Assembly (NCBI GenBank): GCA_019096065.1
Contig: JAGUCH010000001.1
Location: forward strand, 3,410,001 to 3,474,000
DNA: 64,000 bases
Origin: Paracyclopina nana
Taxonomy: Eukaryota; Arthropoda; Copepoda; Cyclopoida; Cyclopettidae
Reading direction: 5' to 3'
The notes beneath the pieces are model-generated. The model was not told the DNA's origin. It was given only the letters and a program-made list of their open reading frames with translations, and made no database searches. Each line of letters starts with the position of its first letter. Position 1 is the first letter of the stretch. Positions 46,598 to 52,693 of the stretch are shown here, piece after piece. The position numbers and the translations under genes are program-made.

Positions 46598-47651
46598 GAG
46601 ATATATTAGCTCAAAAGTATCTTTCTAGCTGACTGACACACCGGTATGGTCACTCGCGATGCCAGCAACTAGCAAGCAGGGTGACCAGAAAATTTGAGCG
46701 GGCTGTAGCCAGATTTCTCTCTAAAATAGCCACATTTGGCTATCTCAGAAAAAAGACTCAAAATAGCCACAAATTGCCAAAAAATAGCCACATTTTTAAG
46801 AATTTTCATGATGATAATAATTATTATGAAAATTTGATCCAATTTTTAGGATTTTTGTAGCTGAAATCAAAAGTGAAATGATGATTTTCGCCTTTTTTTT
46901 TTGGTTGGCAAAAGATATAAAAAAGTCTGCCGTTTTTGCAAATTCAATTTTTTTCTTAACTTTTTTGCAGAATTTCAAGCGTTTATTAAGTAAAAATATC
47001 AAATTTTCGGGCTTTTCAAAAATAGCCACAAATGGCTATGGCTATTCGGCCTAAATTTGCGTAGCCACACATGGGTCAAAAATAGCCACTTTGGCTATAA
47101 ATAGCCACATCTGGTCACCCTGCTAGCAAGCCCATCTGAGGTGAGAGAATGCGCAAAAAACGATGACTCCAGCCTACCTTTAAATGCCTGCTTTTACAGC
47201 TTTATCTATTTTTTATGGACATTGAAAACAAAGTGAGCCTTTGAATGAATTTTTTTTATCTTTTTACTAGATTTTCCCAATTTTGAACGTAAGTCTAAGG
47301 TAAAAAAGGCTACGTGAGGTTTGGAGATAAGCCTAAAAAATATATGTTCGTCTTCCCGGACTGAAACATCTGTTCTGCGTTCTTGCAAAAGCCGCAAACA
47401 AAATGTGAGGCAAATTGGCATAGTGAAATAGGCTTTTTCAGCTTTCACAAACATTGATTGAAATTTTCGCTTACACATGACTGCTTTGGAAAATTCATGC
47501 ATAAAATGTGACGCAATATAAATCGATGATACATGAAAAGTTCCCGAAATTTTCGACCTGTCATCTATGGAAATAAATTGTAAACAAACACAGCGAAACT
47601 CTAGTGAACTTTCAAAACAACACGTCAAACAGTTTTTAAGCTGACTTGAAA
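46598..47651. other. intergenic region with hAT MITE
   Basis: This lies between the divergent F-box and BNIP1 genes. The left half is the transposon described separately. The right half (about 47131-47651) is AT-rich with no supported exon and should hold the promoter of the BNIP1-PPOX cluster. Confidence 0.55.
46677..47122. mobile_element. hAT-type MITE with perfect 8-bp target duplication
   Basis: Terminal inverted repeats CAGGGTGACCAG (46677-46688) and CTGGTCACCCTG (47111-47122) are exact complements. They are flanked by the direct repeat CTAGCAAG (46669-46676 and 47123-47130). An 8-bp duplication and a CAGGG start identify the hAT superfamily. The 446-bp element is AT-rich and non-coding. 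Both subterminal zones are packed with TAGCCACA and its complement TGGCTA, probable transposase-binding repeats. The intact ends and duplication suggest fairly recent insertion by an autonomous hAT element elsewhere. Confidence 0.93.
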
Positions 47652-48535
47652 ATGGAGTCCTTGCAGTTCGGCTCGGAGATCTCTGACGTACAGGAAGACT
47701 TGGTCAAAATCAACCTACGAATTCGTGCATTGGTGGAAAGTTTTTCATCGGTCGACTCGAGCCATGCTATGGAAAAACTTAATTGTGAAATACGTGCTCA
47801 ATTTGACTTGATGAGGAAAAGCATATCTGGATTGAGAGATTTGGCAAAGAAACAGCAAAACCCTCAATCATTTGCTATGCTAAAAGCGGATGCAGATAGC
47901 CACGAAGATCAAATGTCTGCTTGTCATACAGCTTTCAAAAAGGCCAATCTTGCATGCATTTCTAAAATTAATGCCCGCGGCCGAGATAAACTTTTCTCTG
48001 GCAAGCCAGGTACAAAAGTTTGAGAATTGTCTTTTAACTTCATCTTCAGACGATTTTCAATTTAGAGCTCAATTCTGCCCAAACTGACAAGGAATCGGTT
48101 GTGCGCGACAGCGGAAAAGCAACCGAGCAGCTAAAAGCCATCTCCAGACATTTGGCTGCGACAGTTGAAAGGTCTTCGAAAACCATGGAAGAGCTAACAG
48201 AGTCTTCAAAAACCATGAATGACGCGGGAGAAGAGTTCAAATCTATGGGGTCAGTGATTGGACAGTCTCGGAAACTGATCACCAAGTATGGTCGCAGAGA
48301 AGTCACAGACAGGGTCCTTATCCTGTTTGCGGCTGCATTTTTCTTTGCTGTCGTATTCTACATTTTGAGAAAAAGGGTCCTCGGTCCATTGGACCCGTTC
48401 TCGCTCATCTGGGCTTCTATCACTGCATTCATTCGATCGGTCATAAATCTGCTTGCTCCTGATGAAGACGAAGCCACATTAGATCCAGTGTCAACAGAGC
48501 CTACAAATGGAGGCCAAATACATGCTGAACTATGA
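47652..48535 (+). CDS. BNIP1: BNIP1/Sec20-type SNARE
   Basis: Two exons (47652-48009, 48066-48535) encode 275 residues. The acceptor TTTCAATTTAG was preferred over an earlier CAG because the earlier one runs into a stop. The N-terminal half is helical (the Sec20 N-domain). The SNARE-like coil at about 145-205 includes SSKTMNDAGEEFKSMGSVIG and RKLITKYGRREVTDRVLI, which is the family signature. A single membrane helix (LILFAAAFFFAVVFYIL) follows. The protein is the Qb/Qc SNARE of Golgi-to-ER retrograde transport and is linked to mitochondrial dynamics. A lumenal tail of about 50 residues ends in HAEL, whereas animal BNIP1 usually stops just after the membrane helix. First gene of a tightly packed four-gene cluster. 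Confidence 0.9.
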
Positions 48536-48578
48536 AATAGCACAGCATGATTGTGATGATAATTAAAATTTATTTTTC

Positions 48579-48587
48579 TTCTAGGCC
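48579..48587 (+). promoter_or_regulatory. candidate trans-splice acceptor before TIMM29
   Basis: A pyrimidine tract (TTTTTCTTCTAG, AG at 48583-48584) stands 3 bases before the TIMM29 ATG and 48 bases after the BNIP1 stop. There is no room for a promoter and no partner 5' exon is visible, so a spliced-leader acceptor is the simplest reading. Confidence 0.5.
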
Positions 48588-49214
48588 ATGGCATACAGAG
48601 CTGTTGTTGCTAATTTCATGCATCCCGTGCGAAACAAGCTAGTGCTTCCAGAAAGACTCAAGGGTGGAAGGCTGGAAAAGCTGGTGACTTATTGGAAAAA
48701 TGTTGCCCTAGATTACGAAGAGGCAACTAAGGACCTGTTCCGTGGCTGTCAGCAAAAGCCAGTCAAGGCCGCATTGATAGCATCAAGCTTGGCCTCGTTT
48801 TTGTACCTCTATGAAACCAAACCAAACGAGGAGAATTTCCGCGACACGTACATCAGAATGCATCACGATCTCACTCTTTTGCCGGACTCTAACAGAAACA
48901 AGGCAGCGCAAAGCCATCGAGATCGAGTGACAAAATGCGAAAATGAACAAACTCTCAGGTTTACGAGTCTCGCAATCGCTACTTTGGTTTGGGAGGACAG
49001 GTTCGCATCACAAGTGGGGCTCTTTAGCGCTCAGTGCTCTTATGTAAAGCCCACCTTTAAAGAGATTCTGGAAGAAAGAATTATAGACTTTGGTTTCAAC
49101 GGAAAGTGGCTGCTGATGGAGAAAGCAATGAAAGACTACGACATCAATCCTGACGAATGGGACGAGAAGGGAAACCCCAAGAGCCCAGAGGCCCAGTTAA
49201 AGCATATGTGGTGA
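48588..49214 (+). CDS. TIMM29: mitochondrial import inner membrane translocase subunit Tim29
   Basis: A single exon of 208 residues. Family resemblance to TIM29 is spread along the protein: an early basic region, the YxEAxKD segment (LDYEEATKDLFRGC), one membrane-type stretch (ALIASSLASFLYLYETKP), then SNRNKAAQSHRDRV, RFTSLAIATLVWEDRF, LFSAQCSYVKPTFKE, RIIDFGFNGKWLLME and KDYDINPDEWDEKG. TIM29 is a metazoan component of the TIM22 complex that inserts carrier proteins into the inner membrane. The start ATG lies in strong context (GCCATGGCA). The gene is 52 bp from its upstream neighbour and 85 bp from the next. AATAAA lies 15 bases after the stop. Confidence 0.88.
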   Translation: MAYRAVVANFMHPVRNKLVLPERLKGGRLEKLVTYWKNVALDYEEATKDLFRGCQQKPVKAALIASSLASFLYLYETKPNEENFRDTYIRMHHDLTLLPDSNRNKAAQSHRDRVTKCENEQTLRFTSLAIATLVWEDRFASQVGLFSAQCSYVKPTFKEILEERIIDFGFNGKWLLMEKAMKDYDINPDEWDEKGNPKSPEAQLKHMW

Positions 49215-49228
49215 TTCAAGAGTGGTCC

Positions 49229-49234
49229 AATAAA
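49229..49234 (+). terminator. polyadenylation signal of TIMM29
   Basis: AATAAA 15 bases after the TIMM29 stop and about 58 bases before the acceptor that precedes HSCB. A poly(A) signal followed by a 3' splice site is the standard arrangement inside trans-spliced operons. Confidence 0.6.
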
Positions 49235-49284
49235 AAAGCCCGTATGAAGATGCCCTCTGGCAAGAATTAATCTTTACTCCCTTC

Positions 49285-49299
49285 ATTTTCCAGGTTGAC
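49285..49299 (+). promoter_or_regulatory. candidate trans-splice acceptor before HSCB
   Basis: CTTCATTTTCCAG, with AG at 49292-49293, is 6 bases before the HSCB ATG. The intervening GTTGAC resembles GGTGAC in front of PPOX. Confidence 0.5.
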
Positions 49300-50141
49300 A
49301 TGGCAGCTAATTTGCCAAAATATGCTAGGCAAGGTCACCGGATCATTAGATCTTCGTGCAGACCTGCTTACACATGTTCCAAGATACCACTAGAAGCAAT
49401 GCTGCTCAGTGAAAAGCGGTAGGTATCATTTTAATCATTTTCCAAACACCTTATATGTAACCGCCTATTTTTCATAGGGGTTGCAGCAAGACGTCTTCCG
49501 TGTTCAAGTTTCATGTGTCAGCCTTTCTATGCCAGACTGAAAAGTGTTGGAACTGTGAGATACCGCGCGATTGCGTCGTGAACACTTTGCACTGCAGCAA
49601 CTGCAAAGTGTTATGTGCACCGCCCAAAGCATCCGACTTTTTTGAGCTTATGGAGCAGCCTGTGAAATTCGATCTGGACGCCAAAAGTTTATCGAAAAGA
49701 TATAGGCAACTACAGAACATTCTTCACCCAGATCGTTACTCGCGCAAGTCTGACCAAGAGCTAAAAAACTCGGAAAGCTGGTCACCGCTAGTCAACGAAG
49801 CCTACTCCACGCTATTGGACCCGTTGAAAAGAGCCAAATATATATTGGAATATTTTGGCCATCCCTTTCTCGAGGGAGATCAGCCAAATATGGGGCCTGG
49901 CTTCCTGCTTGAAATTATGGAAATCAATGAAATGCTTCACGACGCTTCAACGGGAGCCGAAATCGATGAGCTGATTGAAGCGACCGCACAGAAATTGCTT
50001 TCACTCTATACGAAGCTATCAACAGCTATAGACGAAAGAGACTTTGTTGGTGCCAAGATCATCGTTGCTCAAATGCAATATTTCCACAATATCAAAGAGA
50101 AAATTAAAGAGAAGGAATTCGAAATGAATATCGTGAGGTAG
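49300..50141 (+). CDS. HSCB: iron-sulfur cluster co-chaperone HscB
   Basis: Two exons (49300-49418, 49478-50141) encode 260 residues. An arginine-rich, acid-poor N-terminus is a probable mitochondrial presequence. A zinc-binding segment CWNC...CSNC is typical of metazoan HSCB. The J-domain at about 95-160 carries HPD in NILHPDRY and WSPLVNEAYSTLLDPLKRAKYIL. The C-terminal ISCU-binding three-helix bundle includes GPGFLLEIMEINEML and ends near MQYFHNIKEKIKEKEF. HSCB delivers ISCU-bound clusters to the HSPA9 chaperone in the matrix. The stop is only 37 bp before the PPOX ATG. A 40-base GTAGAT-CAG segment there could act as a tiny intron, changing only the last residues. Confidence 0.94.
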
Positions 50142-50163
50142 ATTTTTCCTTTAAATTTCAAGT

Positions 50164-50178
50164 TTTTTTCAGGGTGAC
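50164..50178 (+). promoter_or_regulatory. candidate trans-splice acceptor before PPOX
   Basis: TTTTTTTCAG, with AG at 50171-50172, is 6 bases before the PPOX ATG and 30 bases after the HSCB stop. Confidence 0.55.
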
Positions 50179-51637
50179 ATGAAATACTCAGTTGTGGGCG
50201 GAGGGGTGTCGGGCCTTTCGACTGCCTACTATTTGGCAAAATACATTGAGCCCTCACTCATCACTGTGTATGAGTCCTCATCACGAGTTGGAGGATGGAT
50301 TGAGAGCACCAAGACTGACGATGGCTTCATCTACGAGCATGGGCCTCGTACAATTCGGCCAGTAGGCAGGCAAGGTGCCAATACTCTGCAGCTGGCCGAA
50401 GAGCTAGGCCTTCAGCATTTATTGAAGCCCATCAAGTATGGCCACCCAGCAACTACCAATCGACAGGTGCTGGCTGACGGAAAGCTTCATCAACTGCCTG
50501 CAAGCATGGGCAAATTGTTCTCCAGACAGCCCCCTTTTTCAAAGCCTCTGTTCATGGCTGCAGTCAAAGATATGTTCACTGTTCAGAAGAAGTGCGACGA
50601 CGAATCATTGCATGCCTTTGTGTCCCGAAGGCTGGGAGCAGATCTCGCTAACTTTGCTATTGACCCGCTTGTAAGAGGAGTGTGTGCTGGAGATGCTCGT
50701 GAAATAAGTGCCAAAGCCTTTGTTGCTGGCCCTTTGTTTGAGCTCGAGCAGCAATATGGAGGAATCGTAAAGGGCATGATCATGCAGTCCATGCCTTGGA
50801 ACGCAAAGCCCCAAGAACCCGAGGAAACGTCCGTAAGCTAGCCTTTAAAGAATCAATGCTGCATCAAGGTTATTATAATTTTCATATTTTATGCAGACTT
50901 TGGTTAAAAGGGCTCGCGCTGAGAAATGGAGCGTGTGGAGCCTGGAAGGCGGGCTATCCCTACTTCCTGAGACTTTGAAAGCGAGGCTCGTAGACATTGG
51001 TGTCAATGTCAAAACGGGCACTGAGTTGGACAAAAAAGATGTCAATAGCCAAGGAGTGATTGCTGCGTCTGACTTCACATTCTGGACCACGCCTGCCAAC
51101 GTAACAGCCCAATATTTTGGGCCCATCCCTGAGATCCAAAATCTCCTGGATTCCATTCCATTTGTTGATGTGGCAGTCGTCAACGTGATGTTCGACGGCA
51201 ATTTACTGCCAAGCCCTGCATTTGGCTTTCTTGTGCCATCGACCGAAAAAAATGTTCCCATTTTGGGAGTCATCTATGACAGTTGCTCCTTTCCTCAAGG
51301 AGGTGATACAACCATTATGACTGTGATAATGGGTGGTGCTTGGTTTGAGCCCCTTTTTGGCCGGAATCCAAGGCAAAGTGACCTTGAAATGGTCGCTGTT
51401 GATCAGCTGAAAAAGATTCTGAAAATCTCCGTTGATCCTACTCGTGTGATTTGCAAGGTGCAGAAAAAGTGTATTGCGCAATACACCATTGGTCACGTAC
51501 AAAGAGTACAAAAATTGAGGAGTCTCGCTCAAAAACTTCCCGTTGCATTTAGTGGCAGCTCCTACGACGGAGTCGGTATCAATGACGCAATCATGTCTTC
51601 CAGAAAGCAAGTTGATCAATTGTTCGGTGCTAAATGA
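50179..51637 (+). CDS. PPOX: protoporphyrinogen oxidase
   Basis: Two exons (50179-50832, 50897-51637) encode 464 residues, near the usual 477. It is an FAD enzyme on the outer face of the mitochondrial inner membrane that oxidises protoporphyrinogen IX to protoporphyrin IX, the penultimate heme step. The dinucleotide motif VVGGGVSGLSTAYYL is at 5-19, followed by ESSSRVGGWIES, EHGPRTIRP, DPLVRGVCAGDAREIS, WSLEGGLSLLPETL and a C-terminal VAFSGSSYDGVGINDAI that contacts FAD. There is no cleavable leader, as usual for this family. Last gene of the four-gene cluster. It converges on the TRIC gene with 55 bp between stops. Iron-sulfur (HSCB) and heme (PPOX) genes side by side is suggestive but unproven as functional linkage. 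Confidence 0.95.
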
Positions 51638-51692: not shown

Positions 51693-52521
51693 TTAGTCAT
51701 TTTTCACGGACTCGTTGAGTGATAAAGCCCTTAATAGGCCCCAAAATGCCTTCTCGATGGGCTCAAAAGGGTCGACAGTCTCTCCGAATATCCCGGAGAG
51801 TTTCACAGTGACAAATAGGCCCACAATGGCCAAATAGACGACGTCCAAATCAGCCAGGAGAGTTAAAGCGAGTGCAGCGAAAAAGCACAGTTTGGTAGCC
51901 ACAGAGGGCTTGATTAGCTCCTGATTTCCAGCTTGCCAATCTCCCCTGACAAACCTAACTATGGGCCCAGCAAAGGCAGATCCATTGCCTTTGAGTGTTG
52001 CAATCAGAAGAGGAATGAAAAAGGGAGAGCCGTTGTAGTGGCGTACGAAATCAGTTCCCTCCTGGAGACCTTTGTACACCTTTTTTGCTCGTAACACCTC
52101 TTTGACGGCACAGATTGTCACGTAGACGGGTACCAGCTTTACAAAGTTGTACACAATGTCCCCAGGCGAGAAGAAGATAGCCAGGAATATTCCAGTCGAG
52201 ACCAAGACCATCTGTTCATCGTTGAAAGCTCCCAAAATAGGCTTGCCTAAAAGAAAAAAAAGGATAAAAATAACATATCTTAAATTCATATTGTGCATTG
52301 ACATTACCCAACAAAGGGTTGCAAATGATGCTTCCTGCGAAGGAGGCAATCATGCAGGAAATCCAGGCCGAAATGGGGTGCTTCCAAGCATAGCCTCTCC
52401 CAGTTTCCTTTCTCACTGCCAGTACACAAAGAATGACGTGACATACATCAAAAAGGGGATAGAAATCCTGGGGCAGATTTTTTAGCTGCTGGCTATACAT
52501 TTCAAGTTGCACTGAATCCAT
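51693..52521 (-). CDS. TMEM38: trimeric intracellular cation channel (TRIC/TMEM38)
   Basis: Two exons (52521-52308, 52246-51693) encode 255 residues. Seven hydrophobic segments are visible. Matches to the family include KHPISAWISCMIASFAGSII near TM2, the SPGDIVYNFVKLVPVYV stretch (equivalent to FPFDVVYR), KEVLRAKKVYKGL (the conserved basic lipid-contact segment), KGNGSAFAGPIVRFVRG and the ATKLCFFAALALTLL helix. TRIC channels are homotrimeric potassium channels of the ER/SR that balance charge during calcium release. Invertebrates usually have one gene, so assignment to A or B type is not meaningful. The C-terminal tail is short. Confidence 0.92.
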
Positions 52522-52693
52522 TCCGGCTTGAGCTGCCCACTGGGTGAGGTCATGCTTGACAAATCCTTTTTACAAGCCCTGATAAGAGGCAATGTTTACA
52601 TTTCGGATTGACTAGCTAGTAATCATGCATGAAGACATATAGGAGACTGTAGATTAGTGGTTCACCCAACCTCGATGGAATTTTATTGCGTGT

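Follow-up and report, generated by a model that had tools for sequence, protein, structure and literature searches.

Spliced-leader (SL) trans-splicing is patchily distributed across the animal kingdom, and it is an open question whether its presence always goes along with the emergence of operons. The closest described systems are those of the tunicates, which use one leader; genes in Ciona intestinalis operons lie less than 100 bp apart, often without any intercistronic region, and those of Oikopleura dioica lie at most 60 bp apart (PMC7986045). Here we examine the four-gene cluster BNIP1/Sec20-TIMM29-HSCB-PPOX, which occupies positions 47652-51637 on the + strand of the window (the whole stretch of 64,000 nucleotides that was analysed) and which a prediction made from the sequence alone had proposed to be a trans-spliced operon. 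Based on the evidence presented below, we consider it probable that the cluster is an operon resolved by SL trans-splicing. Like the tunicate operons, it combines closely spaced head-to-tail genes with acceptors at the starts of the downstream genes. Unlike them, it is a single locus known from its sequence, whereas leader-bearing reads serve as proof in tunicates and more than 1000 operons are reported per species.

Other operon-bearing animals offer partial parallels. The SL2-type operons of Caenorhabditis are polycistronic units resolved by polyadenylation and trans-splicing, as would be the case here, and the median intercistronic distance in C. elegans was estimated at 99 bp by SLOPPR (PMC7986045). 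They differ from the present locus in having a leader specialised for downstream genes, described as a nematode feature in the same source, and the third gap of our cluster further departs from them in having no polyadenylation (poly(A)) signal of its own. In the chaetognath Paraspadella gotoi, operons were defined as genes less than 250 bp apart bearing the leader and comprise 18% of genes (PMC12460157); they are supported by leader reads, whereas our small genome sample yielded no second clear case.

Copepods, the animal group to which the host very probably belongs, are themselves known to trans-splice. Yang et al. 2015 described a 46-nt leader in nine calanoids, encoded by genes lying in arrays or beside 5S ribosomal DNA (rDNA), and accepted leaders of siphonostomatoids based on expressed sequence tags; 5' untranslated regions (UTRs) in these systems are short, as they would be at the present locus, and known leaders had no match in the cyclopoid or harpacticoid data of that study (PMC4664967). 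The words operon and polycistronic are absent from the main text of that paper, and Wenzel et al. 2021 name rotifers, copepods and amphipods, with some others, among the trans-splicing animals for which operons and polycistronic mRNAs were unreported (PMC7986045). Among the papers listed by a literature search that did not cover subscription papers and preprints, none described, by title and beginning of abstract, an operon from a copepod or any other arthropod. We lean towards viewing the cluster as a trans-spliced operon of four genes, which may be the first to be described in an arthropod; its host would be a copepod other than a calanoid, and its leader one as yet undescribed, from a copepod branch in which the single dedicated study detected neither known leader type. 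If so, a leader would be expected in copepods outside the two orders for which Yang et al. 2015 accepted one, and so clear an example, found in a copepod genome of 92 Mb (10 contigs), would make the operon question testable with RNA reads.

Layout of the cluster and its gene ends

The four genes follow one another head to tail, all on the + strand. BNIP1/Sec20 (47652-48535; Pfam Sec20, 9.2e-26) consists of two exons, 47652-48009 and 48066-48535, separated by a 56-bp intron (48010-48065). It is followed by gap 1 (48536-48587) and by TIMM29 (48588-49214), a single-exon gene (Pfam Tim29, 9.4e-50) whose product is 75, 74, 58 and 58% identical to its relatives. Beyond gap 2 (49215-49299) lies HSCB (49300-50141; Pfam HSCB_C, 2.9e-15, and DnaJ, 2.8e-7), with exons 49300-49418 and 49478-50141 around a 59-bp intron (49419-49477). 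Gap 3 (50142-50178) precedes PPOX (50179-51637), which comprises exons 50179-50832 and 50897-51637 and a 64-bp intron (50833-50896); its first exon matches Pfam Amino_oxidase (7.6e-20), and relatives of its product carry the annotation protoporphyrinogen oxidase. The spliced models are all open and encode proteins of 275, 208, 260 and 464 amino acids, respectively. They bear out the predicted stop-to-ATG distances of 52, 85 and 37 bp, which are exact for the first ATG of each downstream gene, and the gene identities hold at the Pfam level or, for PPOX, through its annotated relatives.

As short gaps can only be trusted if the gene ends are, these were compared with those of relatives for TIMM29, HSCB and PPOX, the BNIP1 end lying outside the comparison. 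The N-terminus of PPOX matches that of relative P0001 (MK.SV.GGG) and the C-terminal end of HSCB is in step with that of relative P0121; consequently, the 37-bp gap 3 is no annotation artefact. TIMM29 ends in QLK.MW, as do all four relatives found. Its first ATG lies 23 residues ahead of the LKGG/WKGG motif, against 16, 18, 29 and 22 residues in the relatives, and so fits as the start.

Acceptors, poly(A) signals and room in the gaps

Each gap closes with a pyrimidine tract and an AG. In gap 1 the acceptor TTTATTTTTCTTCTAG runs to 48584 and is followed by GCC and the ATG of TIMM29; in gap 2 CTCCCTTCATTTTCCAG runs to 49293, ahead of GTTGAC and the ATG of HSCB; in gap 3 AAGTTTTTTTCAG runs to 50172, ahead of GGTGAC and the ATG of PPOX. 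The acceptor AGs thus end 3, 6 and 6 nt before the respective start codons, at exactly the positions originally predicted, and 11, 11 and 9 of the 12 bases preceding the YAG are pyrimidines. The TAG of the gap 1 acceptor is itself in frame with TIMM29. BNIP1 itself shows no acceptor-like site, defined as a YAG preceded by at least 9 pyrimidines in 12 bases, within 20 nt of its ATG.

Across 104 kb of sequence, and with the three sites of the cluster included, 77 of 3894 ATGs (2.0%) have such a site at a distance of 8 nt or less, and 195 (5.0%) at 20 nt or less. Starts of Ras-family genes provided a second comparison. A census returned 143 matches, from which 39 starts were picked, 19 fetched and 13 scored, the six others being dropped as their initiator was not clear (two with a Met in a long frame, four without). 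None of the 13 scored starts has an acceptor-like site within 8 nt, against three of three in the cluster (Fisher p 0.0018, for a test chosen post hoc). What stands out at this locus is the occurrence of all three acceptors at 3-6 nt from the ATG directly behind the stop codon of a neighbouring gene. A tandem pair of same-strand Ras-like genes separated by 104 bp (L111, C4:4781991-4782340) lacks a strong acceptor before its second ATG.

Two of the gaps also hold a poly(A) hexamer, ATTAAA at 48562 in gap 1 and AATAAA at 49229 in gap 2, the latter being the signal previously noted between TIMM29 and HSCB. Room for ordinary splicing is scarce. The sole GT of gap 1 would delimit an intron of 32 bp and the sole GT preceding the acceptor of gap 3 one of 11 bp; since local introns measure 56-64 bp, no normal cis intron fits either gap. 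Gaps 1 and 3 are too small for a promoter, an exon and an intron. The 5' ends of the TIMM29 and PPOX mRNAs would consequently need a leader supplied in trans, a first exon located inside the preceding gene, or a transcription start a few bases from the ATG.

We infer co-transcription, trans-splicing, a leader and a leader gene from this arrangement. A single promoter upstream of BNIP1, presumably within 46600-47651 on the + strand, would give rise to a single pre-mRNA. This transcript would be cleaved and polyadenylated behind each gene, and a spliced leader encoded elsewhere would be joined in trans to the acceptors at 48584, 49293 and 50172, so that trans-splicing would create the 5' end of each downstream mRNA (TIMM29, HSCB and PPOX). 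The poly(A) site would fall almost on top of the acceptor in gaps 1 and 3, an arrangement that has been reported for Ciona.

Competing explanations

Any alternative has to account for three acceptors in three small gaps, which leads either to chance or to promoters nested in coding sequence. The one that survives best, although we regard it as unlikely, is dense packing of independent genes, in which separate promoters and 5' untranslated exons would lie within the upstream genes (or, for HSCB, in gap 2) and the exons would be cis-spliced to the observed acceptors. Donor-like sites, defined as matching the consensus at 6 or more of its 8 positions, do exist in the upstream genes, at 48250 for TIMM29, at 48684 and 49211 for HSCB and at 49419 for PPOX, the last being the donor of HSCB itself; the best of them, however, reach only 6 of 8 positions. 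Dense packing would moreover require three promoters within coding sequence, and would have to place an acceptor 3-6 nt from the ATG three times, an arrangement seen at none of the Ras starts. In-frame fusion of neighbouring products by cis-splicing was also considered and rejected, as splicing from three of the four donor-like sites would shift the reading frame relative to the downstream ATG, while 48684 leaves it in frame.

A rather improbable explanation is that each downstream gene has its own promoter and a very short 5' UTR starting in the gap, the acceptor strings being unused tracts or promoter elements. The gaps are T-rich, and pyrimidine runs ending in AG are not rare, as the 195 ATGs with such a site within 20 nt attest, but their presence at 3-6 nt in three of three cases contrasts with the 2.0% of ATGs that have one within 8 nt, and 37 bp is small for a promoter and a start site. 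Mature polycistronic mRNAs, with the downstream frames reached through re-initiation or an internal entry site, are very improbable: while the gaps are short and gap 3 has no internal poly(A) signal, the acceptors, the ATTAAA of gap 1 and the AATAAA of gap 2 would be left without a role, and the contigs of relatives, which could be genomic pieces, are mostly of single-gene size (1054, 1243, 1745 and 5988 nt for TIMM29; 903, 1035 and 2008 nt for HSCB; 1460 nt for the nearest PPOX).

Several observations nevertheless weigh against an operon resolved by trans-splicing. Acceptors near start codons are not rare in this genome, being present within 20 nt of 3 and within 45 nt of 7 of the 13 Ras starts. 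At one of these starts (L092), a donor that looks good by eye lies in cis some 80 nt further upstream; together with its acceptor, this donor suggests that ordinary 5'-UTR introns occur in this genome, as dense packing would also have it. Gap 2 likewise has room for a cis intron, since its three GTs would yield introns 72, 69 or 52 bp long. HSCB raises a further difficulty. Its first ATG lies 62 residues ahead of the CWNC motif, against 35 and 27 residues in relatives, so that a later ATG at 49399 fits better; the true start may be located there, in which case gap 2 would be longer. Finally, gap 3 contains none of the 11 poly(A) hexamers tried; ATTAAA at 50103 and AATGAA at 50123 both belong to the last part of the HSCB reading frame.

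Genomic context, leader gene search and host

The remaining points on this side come from the wider genome. Other tight same-strand neighbours were sought with a coarse codon-composition scan of 104 kb, which gave 16 rows: three correspond to the cluster, one to the PPOX intron and two to a tandem repeat, seven lie beside or inside genes and were taken by eye as introns, and three (window positions -17001, 10624 and 11372) received no assignment. With these 3 of 16 rows left open, no other clear tight pair emerged. For the earlier claim that no other same-strand neighbours in the window are so close, this is a rough test, and it missed the TIMM29-HSCB junction of the cluster itself. Genome-wide, the pattern AATAAAN{5,35}TTTTCAGN{0,6}ATG occurs at 165 places, against 56 for its reversed version. 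Among 20 of the first 25 matches listed (two overlapping doubles and three repeated sequences were skipped), none clearly joins two genes. One site (L081) is ambiguous as an operon junction; three resemble starts of genes that have no near neighbour upstream, namely L070 (BTB) and L080 (KIND), recognised through Pfam, and L075, recognised by reading of the sequence; the others are internal exons or chance occurrences. If this genome contains operons, they may be few, or the sample may be too thin.

Likewise, no SL RNA gene was recognised with four genome patterns, in two 5S arrays or with a leader model applied to 191 kb. The calanoid CopepodSL hairpin, CCAAGCTN{2,9}GCTTG, matched 229 scattered places, with no array among the 100 matches listed. 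Nothing convincing was seen among the 100 matches listed for each of the other patterns: CCAAG-AGGTR-ATTTTTG (127 places), ACCAAG-GGTA-TTTTTG (126 places), and a small nuclear RNA (snRNA) promoter core combined with a donor and an Sm site (277 places). Counts for the reversed patterns were lower in all four cases (15 for the hairpin, 20 for CCAAG-AGGTR-ATTTTTG, 65 for the snRNA core and 89 for ACCAAG-GGTA-TTTTTG) but were not used as a null, since splice sites and palindromes are lost on reversal. The string AATTTTTGG alone, at 2067 occurrences per strand, is too common to use. A sequence model of the published copepod leaders gave 0 matches in the 191 kb. These searches presuppose features of the leader gene, be it CCAAG in the leader, a promoter of the snRNA type or a particular Sm site; the absence of a match is consequently weak evidence, yet it counts against the operon.

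Two recurrent candidates were rejected. A leader candidate recurring at four of the snRNA-core places proved to be a tandem satellite, and a recurrent candidate from the ACCAAG-GGTA-TTTTTG pattern proved to be a second satellite with a unit of about 175 bp. The two tandem satellites, both with units of about 175 bp, are found on several chromosomes (L064-L067; L088-L091). The second mimics a leader gene in containing CCAAG, GGTA and TTTTTG, its T run being flanked by GGCC on both sides.

The host was placed through a tree of 44 PPOX sequences. A group of 32, including the query and Eurytemora carolleeae, splits from the other arthropods (insects, branchiopods, a barnacle and Penaeus) with a support of 98/97. 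Within this group the query falls into a subclade of 11 (98/97) alongside the sequence Tk10742, a label that we take to denote Tigriopus kingsejongensis, while the part of 21 sequences holds Eurytemora and an entry that is presumably from Calanus. Based on this one gene, the host is very probably a copepod, and we read it as one outside the calanoids. The proposed trans-spliced operon is partly supported: the gaps, the acceptors, the lack of room in gaps 1 and 3 and the copepod host all favour it, while the searches described above found no SL RNA gene and a limited sample gave no second clear operon. The operon would be a strong inference drawn from the structure of a single locus.

Some additional features were recorded in the course of these searches. 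The genome contains two kinds of 5S array, at C1:1276501-1286500 (L039) and C1:913001-918000 (L040); the repeat unit of one is about 347 bp long and carries a 5S fragment in its spacer, and that of the other measures 472 bp and comprises two 5S variants. A lone 5S gene at C2:6683836 scored best among those scored, 47 of 2503 first-look candidates, and further 5S arrays are possible. U2 (n=9) and U1 (n=7) genes are scattered (L044-L059) and have a common promoter core, approximately TCAA at -57 to -54. Upstream of the cluster, a stretch rich in ATAGCCACA / TGGCTAT at 46680-47120 has a near-identical piece at C2:8737420 and is probably a dispersed repeat. Downstream, the cluster is limited by a convergent TRIC channel gene on the opposite (-) strand (51696-52569; Pfam TRIC, 3.3e-33 and 6e-7 on two frames).

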